Positions 4,572 through 43,255 of a stretch of 64,000 nucleotides of DNA are shown here, piece after piece (position 1 is the first letter of the stretch; every line of letters begins with the position of its first letter). Origin of the DNA: Tidjanibacter massiliensis (GTDB lineage: Bacteria; Bacteroidota; Bacteroidia; Bacteroidales; Rikenellaceae); assembly GCF_900104605.1 (NCBI RefSeq), contig NZ_LT629959.1, positions 62,001-126,000 of the forward strand. The letters are read 5' to 3'. The position numbers were made by a program, and so were the translations under genes. A model generated the notes under the pieces. It ran no database searches. It saw only the letters and a list, made by a program, of their open reading frames with translations, and was not told the origin of the DNA.

Positions 4572-5408
4572 TTATTTCTTTTTTTTGTCGGCATCGGAGA
4601 AGTGTTCTCCCGCGAGGGTTTCGAGCTCTTCGTAGTCTGTGTATTTCACGAGCAGCACGTCGGACAGTGCGTTCATCTTCGCGCCGAGCCGTATCTTTAT
4701 CACATGGTATATTCCGTCCGGCGATTCGCTCACGGAGGCTACCGTACCGATGAAACAGTCGGGCGGGAACCGCAGCGAATAGGCCGACAGTACCGTGTCT
4801 CCCCGTTTGACATCCGCGTAACGGGGGATGTCTACCATGGTCATCTCCCGCGGGTCGGTGCCGTCCCAATAGACCGAACCGAAATATTCGCTGCCCTTGA
4901 GGCGGCCACCTATGCTGAAACTGCCGTTGAGTACCGACATGCAGACTGCGTAATGGTCGGAGTGCCTGCGGACATAACCAGCGACGGCACCTTCCGGCGA
5001 CAATACCGCCATGTTCTCTTCGATGCCGTCGGCGGTACCTTTATCTATCACGAAAAAGTTGTCCTGCCGCGCGATGGAGTTGCTGACGACCTTTGCAGTT
5101 CCGAAGAGATATTTCATTCCGTCCGTCCGGGCGGCCAGTGTATCGCCTGCGGGTATGGCGGCATGTAGTCTGGTCTCGGCTTCGGCGAGGCGTTCGAGCA
5201 GCACGGCGTTTTCGCGCCGCAGCGAAAAGTAGTCTCCCGCCGAGGCGAAGAAGCCCTCTATTCCCCCGGTCACCCGTGCGGCGCCGGCGAGCAGCGTGGC
5301 GCGGGTATAGCTGGTCGAATTGGCGTAATAGCTTATCGCCCCTGCTTCGAGCAATACGAAGAGGAATACCGCATAGTACCGTTTGAAAAAGCGTACGAGC
5401 CTGTACAT
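4572..5408 (-). CDS. mreC: Rod-shape-determining protein MreC
   Basis: A 278-residue bitopic inner-membrane protein: an N-terminal anchor (AVFLFVLLEAGAISYYA), a coiled-coil-prone segment (about residues 50-85, YFSLRRENAVLLERLAEAET) and a periplasmic double beta-barrel domain with FVIDKGTADGIEENMAVLSPEGAVAGYV, the canonical MreC segment. It is a scaffold for the elongasome with MreB, MreD, PBP2 and RodA. It is second in the operon, 112 nt after mreB and 9 nt before mreD. A lysine-rich tail (DADKKKK) ends the protein. Confidence 0.96.
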   Translation of the reverse strand: MYRLVRFFKRYYAVFLFVLLEAGAISYYANSTSYTRATLLAGAARVTGGIEGFFASAGDYFSLRRENAVLLERLAEAETRLHAAIPAGDTLAARTDGMKYLFGTAKVVSNSIARQDNFFVIDKGTADGIEENMAVLSPEGAVAGYVRRHSDHYAVCMSVLNGSFSIGGRLKGSEYFGSVYWDGTDPREMTMVDIPRYADVKRGDTVLSAYSLRFPPDCFIGTVASVSESPDGIYHVIKIRLGAKMNALSDVLLVKYTDYEELETLAGEHFSDADKKKK

Positions 5409-7431: not shown

Positions 7432-8142
7432 TTACTGCCCCTCGTCTTCGAGGCAGGAGGCCAGCGCCGCTGCAAGCGCTTCATATCGGTTCGGGCGCGG
7501 CAGGTCGGGACAGACGATTTCTCCCGAGGGGGCGAGCAGAATGTATCGGGGTATCGTGATATTCCTGTTTTGATAGACCTTTTGGGTGATGTCTTCCAGC
7601 AGGGATTGACCGGCCCGGATGTGCCACCCGGCGAGCGCATGTTTTTCGACGGCCTTCGTCCATCTGTCGGCTGTCTCCGGTTTGTCTATCGAAATATATA
7701 CCAGTTGCAGGTTGTCGTACCGGGCGGTTATTTCGTGCAGTTGTTCGGTAAACCGGAACTGCTGTCGGCAGGGGATGCACCAGCTCGCCCAAAGGTCTAT
7801 CAGGCAGTAGCGGCCGCAGAGGCCGGGCAGCGAGACTATCTCGGCGAGGGTTTCGATTTCGTCCGTGACGTAACGGATTTCTCCGTCGTCTCGTGCGTGT
7901 TCCGTTGCTCGCCCTTTGCGCTGCCGTTCGAGCGAGGCGATGATGGCGGCGGATTCGGAACCGGGCGTCAGCGTGAATTCCCGGAGGGCATGGTGGAAAG
8001 GCTGGAACGCCCCGTCGACGGTGCCGAATAGTTTGATGGTCGTCTCCTTTTCGGCCGCGAGGAAGATGCGTGCCGGTTGGCCCTTGCATGTACCGGCTGC
8101 GAGAAGCAGCGCCAGGCAGGCAGCGAAGATTGATGTTCTCAT
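7432..8142 (-). CDS. TlpA/ResA-like periplasmic thiol-disulfide oxidoreductase
   Basis: A 236-residue exported thioredoxin-fold protein. The N-terminus [21 protein letters not shown] is a signal peptide, possibly a lipoprotein signal (AAGTC). A roughly 90-residue N-terminal region precedes a thioredoxin domain with [16 protein letters not shown]; the redox pair is Cys122 and Cys125 (WCIPC), as in TlpA/ResA proteins of Bacteroidota. The family reduces or swaps disulfides in envelope proteins, often for cytochrome c maturation or stress resistance. The cis-proline region ([12 protein letters not shown]) is also present. The specific partner is unknown. Confidence 0.9.
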
Positions 8143-40310: not shown

Positions 40311-40473
40311 CATCATTGGCGGTCGGGGATGAGCGGTGCAGAACAGACGGTGCGTGGAAAGGGAACGGTGCGGTACCGGAGTGCACGGGCGCTCTTTCCC
40401 GTATGCTGGCTGTCGGGGCGGTTTCCGTTTCGGGCGGTGTCGGAGCGGCAGACAGAGGAAGAATGAAAGCCGT

Positions 40474-41418
40474 ATGAAGAGAAGGGTTCATGCAGGATAT
40501 GTAGCCGTATGTGCGGCATGTGTCTTGTTCCATGCGGCGTGCGGCCGGTGGAGCGGTGCGCCGTGGTATCTCGACCGGGCGCAGTTGCGGACGGATTATC
40601 TGGCGGCCGTGGCGGATGCCGTTGTGTCCGACGCGTCGGAGGTGTACCGCGACCTGCCCTGTATCGTTTCCCCCGACTCCGGCGACGGGTTGGAGTGGAC
40701 GGAGCGCGGCGGACGGCAGTTCGTGCTCGTCTGTTCCATGACGGACGGGGAGTATGCCGGTGTGTGGACGGCGGGACGGCAGTTCGTTACGGACGGTTAT
40801 ACGTTGTGGGTCGTTCTGCCGTATGAACTGGAGGAGCGTATGCGGCGTATGCCTCTGATGGGGGATTCATTGGAGTGTAGGATGCGGATGCTGCAGTTGC
40901 TCGGCCTTCCGCCGGACAGCCCTTACGACCGGCTCCTCTTTTTCTATGCCGACCGCAGTACGTTGCTCAGACCGTGTCCCAATCCGGACGTCGGGGCGTG
41001 TGCGGCTCCCGATGTGTCTCCCGGCGACCTGCCTGCACCGTACCGGAAGTGGTTCGAGGCGCGGACGGCGCTTTCATACGGAGAGGAGAATCCGTATCCG
41101 TGGACACGTCTCGGATATACCTATGACTGGCATCGGGACGCTGACCAGAGGAGGGGGTTGGGAGAGTTCATCGTTCCCGGCGGTACGGAGGTCATTGCCG
41201 TGGAGCAGGTGACCGTCTGGCGATGGTATCGCGGTCTGGTTGGTATCGTCCGGGCGGATGATACGGCCGGGGCCGTGAACGGAACGGACCGCATGTTTTT
41301 CGGAAGGGACGGGGCCGGATTTCCGGAAGTGTTTCCGCAGGGGCTGCCTGCACTGGGGTGGGCTGTCCGTCGGATTCCGGCGATGCATGCAATTTCTAAA
41401 GATAGTCTTTTTTATTGA
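40474..41418 (+). CDS. Orphan lipoprotein of unknown function
   Basis: A 314-residue protein with a lipoprotein signal (MKRRVHAGYVAVCAACVLFHAAC). I recognise no family. The mature part is rich in Trp, Arg and Tyr, with segments such as YRDLPCIVSPDSGDGLEW, GYTLWVVLPYELEERM and LGYTYDWHRDADQRRGLGEFIVPGG; the latter part (GEFIVPGGTEVIAVEQVTV, GTDRMFFGRDGAG) might be a small beta domain. ATG 40474 is chosen because it begins the signal peptide; a tiny frame at 40463 stops at once. No coupled neighbour. Codon use matches the GC-rich background. Confidence 0.8.
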   Translation: MKRRVHAGYVAVCAACVLFHAACGRWSGAPWYLDRAQLRTDYLAAVADAVVSDASEVYRDLPCIVSPDSGDGLEWTERGGRQFVLVCSMTDGEYAGVWTAGRQFVTDGYTLWVVLPYELEERMRRMPLMGDSLECRMRMLQLLGLPPDSPYDRLLFFYADRSTLLRPCPNPDVGACAAPDVSPGDLPAPYRKWFEARTALSYGEENPYPWTRLGYTYDWHRDADQRRGLGEFIVPGGTEVIAVEQVTVWRWYRGLVGIVRADDTAGAVNGTDRMFFGRDGAGFPEVFPQGLPALGWAVRRIPAMHAISKDSLFY

Positions 41419-41428
41419 ATACTAAAAT

Positions 41429-41476
41429 AATATAATATATTATATTGGACAATTGTTTGTTCCCTCGTTACCTTTG
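41429..41476 (+). promoter_or_regulatory. Putative promoter with an AT-rich palindrome, upstream of the Bor genes
   Basis: AATATAATATATTATATT (41429-41446) is a perfect 18-bp palindrome overlapping TTGG (41445-41448); TACCTTTG, a TAnnTTTG match, follows 20 nt later (41469-41476). Transcription would start near 41483 and leave about 290 nt of leader before the first Bor gene. No gene is supported in the 41419-41773 gap; a 62-codon frame at 41445 looks fortuitous. Confidence 0.45.
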
Positions 41477-41773
41477 CGATGAACGAGTGCATCCGTCGGC
41501 GGCGGAATGCGGCTGTTCCCTGCGCAATCCGACGGCGATGCGGTGCGTTCCGGCGTATGCGCGAGATGTGCGCGACGGCCTTTCCGGGAAGAGGATTTTA
41601 CCGTTGGTTGAAGACGGTACCGTAGCTTATTGAGACGGGAATGGCAGTACGTCGGTGCAGGGGCGGGAGGAGGTCTGCCGTTCGCAGGTGCCGGAGCCGG
41701 CAGCACGGTGTGCGGTGATGACCCGTTCTGCCGGAACATGAAGAGGCGACCTGAATCTTTCAATATATAAGCC

Positions 41774-42139
41774 ATGAAGAGAATTTTACCGTTTTGCCTG
41801 TGTTTGTGCTGTGTGGGACTGACGTCCTGTTTCCGCACGAACCTTTATGTAGGCAATGCCCGGCCCGACGACAGAAAAGTCAAGGTGAGTCAGGAATCGT
41901 TCAATCACCATTTCGTCGGCGGACTCATTCCCGGCGGCAATACCACGATGACGGCGTCGGAGTATGTGGACGACGCCGACAGTTTCGTCGTTCAGACCAG
42001 TACCGGTTTTCTGAACGGCCTTGTCGGGGGAGTCACGGCGGGAATCTATACCCCGACCCAGACCAAATTCTATCTGCCGGTAGAGGAGTTGAACAAGACG
42101 GCGGCTGCCGGCAGGGAGTCTGCAAAAGAGGAGGAGTAG
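41774..42139 (+). CDS. Bor-family lipoprotein
   Basis: A 121-residue lipoprotein (signal MKRILPFCLCLCCVGLTSC). The mature domain resembles the lambda Bor family: an HHFVGGL block followed by an acidic-aromatic strand, SFVVQTSTGFLNGLVGGVTAGIYTP, and QTKFYLP; the FxNGLxG-x-T-x-GIYTP pattern is the family core. Bor is a phage-encoded outer-membrane lipoprotein linked to serum resistance in enterobacteria. Here it is a chromosomal gene with a 1-nt gap to a second Bor-domain gene, so the two form an operon. Its role in this organism is not known. Confidence 0.82.
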   Translation: MKRILPFCLCLCCVGLTSCFRTNLYVGNARPDDRKVKVSQESFNHHFVGGLIPGGNTTMTASEYVDDADSFVVQTSTGFLNGLVGGVTAGIYTPTQTKFYLPVEELNKTAAAGRESAKEEE

Positions 42140-42140
42140 T

Positions 42141-43028
42141 ATGAAAACCGTGAAAGGAATCGTCGTTGCGGCCGCAGCGGTCGCGGCGGCAGTCTGTGCA
42201 TCCTCGTGCAGCACGAGTCGTATTCTTGTCGGCGACGTCAAACCCAAAGAGCCGATGATTGAAGTATCCAAGGAACACAACGCTCATTTCCTCGGCGGGT
42301 TGGTCAAGACGGGAAAGACCATCGCGCAGGAACATGTCGGCGATGCGGAGAATTACGCCGTACTTACCCGTTACGGGTTCGGAGACATCATGCTGTCGTT
42401 CGTGACGGGTTATATTTACACTCCGACGACCACGAAGTATTACATTCCGGTGCGGTATATGGATGACTTCGATTTCGTGGGTAAAGAAAAGCAGCGCAAA
42501 GAGCGTGTACACAAAGACAGGGGGTTCGTTATCGGAGTCGAGACGGGCGGCGGTGCATGGCCCGGTCCGCGCACGGGCATCGGTCGTTGGCTGACAGAAG
42601 CTACGGTGAATACCGCGCTGACGTTCGGTTATCAGGCGAATCCGCACTTTTACATGGCGGCGGGTTTCGATTTGAGCGCTTACTCGATGCCTGGCGACGG
42701 AGACCTCGTTACGCTGTTGCAGCCTTTCCTGCGTTTCCGCTACACGGTGCTCGACCGGAACAGTTCGCCGTTCGTGGGCATCGACCTCGGCGTGCCTTTG
42801 GAGCGTGTGGAAAGCGATAACTGGGGAGACGAGTGGGACCCTGCATTGGCCCTCACTCCCATGATAGGATACCGCTTCCGGGTGGGGCGCCATCGTAATG
42901 CCGGTTTCGACATCGGCATAGGCTACCGATTGGGCGAGTTTTTCTCTGAAATCGATTCCCCTTTCGTGCTCAAGGAATGTTCGCTGAACGCGCTGTTGCT
43001 TAAAATCGGGTTCAGCATCACGCTTTGA
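42141..43028 (+). CDS. Bor-like domain fused to a probable outer-membrane beta-barrel
   Basis: A 295-residue lipoprotein (signal ending VCASSC). Residues about 24-110 repeat the Bor plan: VSKEHNAHFLGGLVKTG, DAENYAVLTRYGFGDIMLSFVTGYIYTP, TTKYYIPVRYMDDF. After a charged linker (KEKQRKERVHKDRG) comes a region of about 170 residues with alternating hydrophobic/aromatic strands: FVIGVETGGGAW, TALTFGYQANPHFYMAAGFDL, LQPFLRFRYTVL, SPFVGIDLGVPL, IGYRFRVGRHRNAGFDIGIGYRL and terminal LLLKIGFSITL, a typical C-terminal outer-membrane strand. The fusion is unusual. The barrel is inferred from strand pattern, not from a named family. Confidence 0.75.
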   Translation: MKTVKGIVVAAAAVAAAVCASSCSTSRILVGDVKPKEPMIEVSKEHNAHFLGGLVKTGKTIAQEHVGDAENYAVLTRYGFGDIMLSFVTGYIYTPTTTKYYIPVRYMDDFDFVGKEKQRKERVHKDRGFVIGVETGGGAWPGPRTGIGRWLTEATVNTALTFGYQANPHFYMAAGFDLSAYSMPGDGDLVTLLQPFLRFRYTVLDRNSSPFVGIDLGVPLERVESDNWGDEWDPALALTPMIGYRFRVGRHRNAGFDIGIGYRLGEFFSEIDSPFVLKECSLNALLLKIGFSITL

Positions 43029-43048
43029 ACGAAACGTCGGGCCAGGAG

Positions 43049-43075
43049 AAGGGGACGGAAAACCGTTCCCTTTTT
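43049..43075 (+). terminator. Intrinsic terminator of the Bor operon
   Basis: AAGGGGACGG (43049-43058) pairs with CCGTTCCCTT around AAAA, followed by a T-run; it lies 20 nt after the stop. Confidence 0.8.
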
Positions 43076-43255
43076 CGTGTTGGGAAGGGCCGCTTTCCGG
43101 ACGTTTCCGTTGGTTGTGGGGGTGTCGTATCCGCTGCGATTGCCATCGCTCTTCGCCTTTGCGAAGGACTGCGGGGCAGGACGTCCGGGTGTGTGTCCGC
43201 GGATGCACGGGTATTCGGACATACGGGCAGCATGACGGTGATTTCATATTCGTAT

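Follow-up and report, generated by a model that had tools for sequence, protein, structure and literature searches.

A Bor lipoprotein domain continuous with a likely outer-membrane barrel in a small clade of Tidjanibacter

The 64 000-nucleotide stretch of Tidjanibacter massiliensis DNA analysed here (the window) carries on its plus strand an open reading frame, 42141–43028, for a 295-residue protein in which a Bor domain is followed in the same chain by a likely outer-membrane barrel. The fusion is real and conserved, and among the genomes examined it is confined to one small clade. It very probably has the architecture lipoprotein signal, Bor domain, linker and barrel-like C-terminus, and the chain is a new domain combination from two known families; a literature search, largely without subscription papers, found no description of a Bor–barrel fusion.

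The N-terminal assignment rests on profile matches. The fusion matched the Pfam family Lambda_Bor (PF06291) over residues 33–101 (42237–42443) with 47.0 bits (E = 2.8e-12), and the gene upstream of it with 60.4 bits (E = 1.9e-16), the curated cut-off being 25 bits. Against PHROG 260, ‘Bor-like outer membrane protein’, the E values were 0.0083 and 9.7e-11, respectively. The Bor pattern that the first-pass annotation had read in the N-terminal third was thus recovered by profile search, the absence of which it had named as the result that would count against it. Residues 1–22 were read by eye as a lipoprotein signal peptide, ending in the lipobox ASSC with the lipid-attachment residue Cys23 (42141–42209). 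Ser22-Cys23 is invariant across 16 aligned Bor proteins, and the Cys, the predicted acylation site, directly precedes the Bor core. The Lambda_Bor model spans only residues 33–101 of the 295, so that the fusion is not a short stand-alone Bor. An AlphaFold model of Bor alone was of low confidence (pLDDT 39.8). A charged linker (residues 106–126; 42456–42518), placed from the alignments and partly helical in a low-confidence model, leads to the predicted eight-strand barrel (residues 127–295; 42519–43025).

The upstream gene (41774–42139, plus strand) encodes a stand-alone Bor lipoprotein of 121 residues, with a lipobox, LTSC, seen by eye. Its stop lies 1 nt before the fusion ORF, the spacing given in the first-pass annotation. 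A promoter-like motif precedes the pair and a terminator-like hairpin follows it. The former, TTG-N21-TACCTTTG, which we take to be the Bacteroidota-type promoter consensus, lies at 41445–41476 on the plus strand and is one of three matches on that strand of the window, with two on the minus strand; both boxes are kept in the alignment with the closer of two ortholog-bearing genomes, G065, and are not evident in the other, G019. The hairpin (43045–43076), 16 nt 3′ of the fusion stop and with a U run in its 3′ arm, had a folding energy of −22 kcal/mol, compared with −13.1 ± 2.6 in shuffled sequences, 1 of 200 of which was as low; a scan for a simple terminator pattern did not list it. From the promoter-like motif to the first Bor gene there is a long leader of about 290 nt (41484–41773), for which a known RNA or riboswitch was dismissed, the best Rfam match scoring 16.5 bits against a threshold of 40. 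A short way upstream of the Bor pair is a predicted lipoprotein-like ORF of 315 residues (40471–41415) without a Pfam match.

The fusion was found in 3 of 23 Tidjanibacter genomes, the window's own (G000) counted, with identities of 84% for G065 and 60% for G019. All three have the gene pair in the same order and with the 1-nt spacing. On one side of the pair G000 and G065 have valS, on the other an aspartyl protease gene with glutamate dehydrogenase beyond, and in the window an MGS-domain gene is also among the neighbours; in G019 the pair is bordered by genes for a peptidase S46 and a Stealth-type protein. The aspartyl protease was found in only 2 of the 23 genus genomes, and the orthologs of the Stealth-type gene in G000 and G065 sit elsewhere, with no Bor within 1.5 kb upstream. 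Since the same pair recurs in three genomes and two surroundings, the fusion is no assembly error, and the fact that the genes remain paired though their surroundings differ suggests that free Bor and fusion work together. In G065 (L120, 6283–7817) valS is separated from the pair by a repetitive stretch with near-identical repeats in several frames. A third, stand-alone Bor adjoins a glutamine synthetase gene in all three genomes (L111, L112 and L113), a call made by Pfam for G000 and G019 and by a near-identical start for G065.

Bor was detected at E ≤ 0.001 in 14 of 268 family genomes, 17 of 395 class genomes (13 above the cut-off) and 30 of 296 phylum genomes, each count including the window's own genome and the class and phylum sets being samples. 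No other Bor at this threshold in these 268, 395 and 296 genomes had a comparable C-terminal extension. The other Bors are stand-alone, mostly in open frames of about 95–165 residues, whereas the fusion adds a likely barrel of ∼170 residues. Other class matches lay in frames of at most 143 residues, and phylum matches without an extracted locus in frames of 125–157. Longer frames (193 and 209 residues in the family, 187 to 320 in the phylum) were mostly upstream read-through, with tails past Bor of about 2–45 residues; the Bor of G128 has a Q-rich tail of about 75. A plasmid search with the fusion as query gave no match. The first-pass annotation had called the fusion unusual and proposed a search of other Bacteroidota, and the search agrees with it, no fusion being found in the family, class and phylum sets outside the three Tidjanibacter genomes.

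As to origin, the fusion would most likely have arisen when a Bor gene joined a barrel of the family to which the C-terminal part belongs, a family with many members in Rikenellaceae. An account that could well hold, though we lean against it, is that tandem duplication within Tidjanibacter gave two Bors, one of which then captured a barrel. The adjacency of the genes in three species fits such a duplication, as does a tree in which fusion and upstream Bors share one side of a branch, but the support for that branch is only 48/60, and the two Bors are just 36–38% identical, a closeness that several other Bors equal. In this 20-row tree the fusion Bors (100/99), the upstream Bors (99/98) and the glutamine-synthetase-linked Bors (94/98) each formed a supported group; the order among these and the prophage Bors was without resolution, and the fusion's Bor was placed with no prophage Bor. 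A topology with all nine genus Bors together had a p-AU of 0.23. A first tree of 30 rows contained ten more Bors, from phage 21, from G010 and, in eight cases, from other families, and the divergent family Bors of G112, G128 and G179 were in neither tree.

Possible too, but on the doubtful side, is a domesticated phage moron: the pair would have arrived in a prophage that has since decayed, with one of its Bors afterwards fused to a barrel of the host. Bor does occur in phage surroundings. It lies with a major head protein and a CI-like repressor on L110 (an IMG/VR contig, host unknown), with major head and tape measure genes in L117 (a Rikenellaceae prophage in G062), on the strand opposite to the phage structural genes in both, and in L114 (G003, Rikenellaceae) it adjoins repressor and terminase genes. 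The fusion's Bor has one of its best matches in that of L110, at 43–44% identity, and shares 43% with the prophage-side Bor of G003. Against this, the G190 Bor, in surroundings read by eye as chromosomal, is equally close (44%), a grouping of fusion and L110 was neither supported nor rejected (p-AU 0.27), and no phage gene was recognised around the pair at either the valS/protease or the peptidase S46/Stealth site, the upstream 315-residue ORF having been compared with Pfam only. The pair thus does not lie within or beside recognised phage genes, as a prophage moron would. Other Bors also have chromosomal surroundings (L111–L113, L115, L116 and L121), and that of G097 adjoins rsmA. Domestication of a phage Bor gene, as raised in the first-pass annotation, is therefore possible: the Bor relatives in L110, L117 and L114 make it plausible, while the pair's lack of phage neighbours, the undecided tree and the chromosomal Bors weigh on the other side.

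Among viral sequences the scans found Bor on one contig, L110 (the same contig again as L122), and on none with the G062 Bor as query. The Bor sites are at 4965–5727 of L110, where a second small lipoprotein gene directly follows Bor, and at 7937–8296 of L117. Phage records gave the fusion query one partial match only, MT837835.1 (L124); this was set aside as phage evidence since, despite the label bacteriophage, the record's remaining long ORFs look chromosomal (a phosphoglucomutase by Pfam and two peptidase-like ORFs by eye).

A joining of Bor to a resident barrel can be seen against the relatives of the C-terminal part. Of 150 family genomes, 94 were matched at E ≤ 1e-5 by the profile of barrel alignment A2, a count that includes those supplying the rows of A2 itself. 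The Rikenellaceae small barrels (OMP_b-brl-like; alignments A2 and A6) share this profile with the fusion, but they stand alone or have a KNGSVIRG-type or carboxypeptidase-regulatory-like N-terminus where the fusion has Bor, and no lipobox was seen in those read by eye, unlike the fusion. An N-terminal domain of the KNGSVIRG type is present on L015, L017, L023 and L096, with a similar one on L103 (named by eye). Relatives L104, L105 and L108 start with a domain that we presume to be carboxypeptidase-regulatory-like, followed by a long coiled coil, both read by eye, and further relatives are bare barrels without an extra N-terminal domain. Since its relatives carry other N-terminal domains, the fusion is one further combination in a barrel family with changing N-termini. 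That one Rikenellaceae barrel family is modular, with at least two N-terminal domain types besides Bor, is an observation in its own right.

The quite different N-terminal parts of related barrels, or their absence, together with the patchy distribution of Bor (14 of 268 family genomes), would also suit a neutral fusion, in which the Bor part would do nothing beyond giving an ordinary barrel its lipid anchor and signal peptide. We consider this quite unlikely, because no part of the protein is as conserved as Bor and a free Bor remains adjacent in three species. In codon comparisons of G000 with G065, Bor residues 23–105 were identical at 83 of 83 positions (dN/dS 0.02), the strands at 65 of 75 (0.10), the turns at 15 of 16 (0.21) and the loops, whose lengths differ, at 48 of 71 aligned residues (0.37), the strand and loop borders being those of a model with a pLDDT of 42. 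Loop 4 was conserved (21/22), unlike loops 1–3. The signal peptide, which such a neutral fusion would have as its contribution, itself varies (16/22), and free Bor was identical at 112 of 121 residues (dN/dS 0.19). Against G019 the fusion's Bor kept 66 of 83 residues and the loops 27 of 66. The full identity of Bor between G000 and G065 is to be read with some caution: dS was 0.24 in the Bor half and 0.67 in the strands, and this low value means that recombination or gene conversion may have contributed beyond selection.

The C-terminal ∼170 residues likely form an eight-strand outer-membrane barrel, a prediction that draws on relatives, amphipathy and fold comparison. The window's own C-terminal part matched no Pfam family at E 0.01. 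Its G019 ortholog matched OMP_b-brl (PF13505) with E = 9.9e-6 and 26.3 bits, slightly below the cut-off of 28.7, and this family was matched at E ≤ 0.01 by 11 of the 28 aligned barrel members, fusion orthologs counted. At a threshold of our own choice, nine amphipathic peaks were counted in the C-terminal part, compared with 4.2 ± 1.6 in shuffled sequences, of which 7 in 2000 reached nine or more. An AlphaFold2 model of the fusion from a five-row alignment placed eight strands in residues 128–294 at low confidence (mean pLDDT 42, pTM 0.39). Six of these eight strands were clearly overlapped by peaks, the first by none and the third by one residue only, and two peaks fell within modelled loops. 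With this low-confidence model as query, Foldseek returned 630 PDB matches at E ≤ 10, of which the three at E ≤ 0.001 were all transmembrane barrels: the OmpA transmembrane domain (1g90, E = 7.2e-5) and two designed ones. A sequence search for solved structures gave no match to the fusion above chance, and matches to ice-binding proteins (NCBIfam, PDB) were dismissed as no better than chance (E of 0.11 or more). The last strand closes with …FSITL and thus has Leu as its final residue, whereas nine non-fusion relatives in A2 terminate in F or W.

The first-pass annotation had taken the C-terminal part for a beta-barrel with a typical last strand. The barrel is likely, given the OMP_b-brl relatives, the amphipathy and the OmpA-type fold matches, even though the window's own part stays under every Pfam cut-off; the last strand, though, lacks a terminal Phe or Trp. 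The structure prediction it had proposed as a check placed the eight strands but at the low pLDDT and pTM given above, and the soluble C-terminal fold that it had named as contrary evidence is not favoured, though the model is too weak to decide against it. A soluble periplasmic beta domain with no membrane barrel is very unlikely: the missing Pfam match in the window's own part, the terminal Leu, the low-confidence model and one modelled strand that is non-amphipathic by our measure are on its side, but the excess of amphipathic peaks over shuffles, the sole fold matches at E ≤ 0.001, the OMP_b-brl matches among the aligned members and the combination of variable loops 1–3 with conserved turns all argue for a membrane barrel.

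The sequence shows that the two-gene unit encodes two Bors, one a free lipoprotein and the other running on into a barrel-like C-terminus. With a barrel as the preferred reading, the fusion would be anchored twice in the outer membrane, by the lipid on Cys23 and by the eight-strand barrel, with the N terminus, C terminus and Bor domain periplasmic and the fast-changing loops 1–3 outside. We hold this topology to be on balance probable. Variable loops 1–3 and conserved turns fit a barrel whose loops face outwards and whose termini face inwards, and Bor would then be periplasmic. The lipid Cys begins the run C-S-T-S-R, in which the surface-export motif CS(D/E)2 or K-(D/E)2 is absent. The export signal of Bacteroides surface lipoproteins (LES) is described as CS(D/E)2 after the Cys (PMC6222051), and the lack of such a motif agrees with a periplasmic Bor. 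The fusion's Bor domain would stay beside its own barrel and pair with the free Bor from the same transcript, and the Bor pair may alter the response of the outer membrane to outside attack, whether by host defence molecules, phage or competitors. Such a role is modelled on the one ascribed to Bor in lambda lysogens, and that fusion and free Bor together modify the response to attack is a tentative and rather improbable proposal. Taken whole, the best explanation, and one towards which we incline slightly, is that a Bor with two anchors acts together with the free Bor and a small barrel.

The nearest known systems each match part of the fusion. In lambda Bor and Iss (PF06291, PHROG 260) a lipobox Cys is followed by the Bor core, as here, and the Bor on L110, the viral contig, shares 34% identity with that of lambdoid phages. 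Lom is an eight-strand barrel of the Ail/OmpX type, and lambda Lom, Ail and OmpX have the same number of strands as the fusion's predicted barrel; Ail and OmpX were among the weak fold matches of the fusion model (E 0.011 to 0.13), and the Ail/Lom (OmpX) Pfam family had no match at E ≤ 1 in the fusion or the barrel relatives scanned. In lambda, bor and lom are separate genes, whereas the fusion has Bor and barrel in one chain. The lipid A deacylase PagL, another eight-strand barrel, gave a non-significant profile match (2erv, E 0.36), as did barrel relative L019 against Pfam PagL (E 0.13). PagL-like catalysis was dismissed since the barrel alignments hold no conserved His-Ser pair; their near-invariant columns are glycines and one Pro, plus one Arg in the smaller alignment. 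Gonococcal NGO2054, compared by its published description (PMC6288298), has a lipoprotein signal and a Lambda-Bor motif, as does the fusion, and an additional region named FSA-C by its authors, but it is a small lipoprotein that they describe without a barrel, unlike the fusion. It was reported there to be exposed at the cell surface, and a compound screen showed little effect of removing it. If transferable, these reports count against the topology and function proposed here, and the small effect warns that a phenotype of the fusion may be hard to find.

To our knowledge the mechanism of lambda Bor is unknown, and how Bor and Iss work has been open for decades. Bor is credited with serum resistance in Escherichia coli (PMC8638967, PMC8065619, PMC6288298), the lambda prophage expresses both lom and bor in the lysogen (PMC7067206), and a 2018 review called the function of the gonococcal Bor lipoprotein enigmatic (PMC6288298). 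Serum resistance by the fusion or the free Bor would be a lead carried over by analogy from E. coli.

The architecture of the fusion suggests that the Bor domain works beside outer-membrane barrels. A stronger, Rosetta-stone reading, that Bor domains act by binding small eight-strand outer-membrane barrels, strikes us as unlikely; were it true, lambda Bor would have Lom or an OmpX/OmpA-like barrel of the host as its natural partner, the Tidjanibacter partner would sit in the Bor chain itself, and the serum-resistance lipoproteins Bor and Iss would have a concrete target. Gut Bacteroidota carry Bor beside phage genes and on chromosomes, beyond its usual enterobacterial setting, and in Tidjanibacter a conserved natural fusion of Bor to a likely barrel hints directly at the partner of Bor and its site of action.
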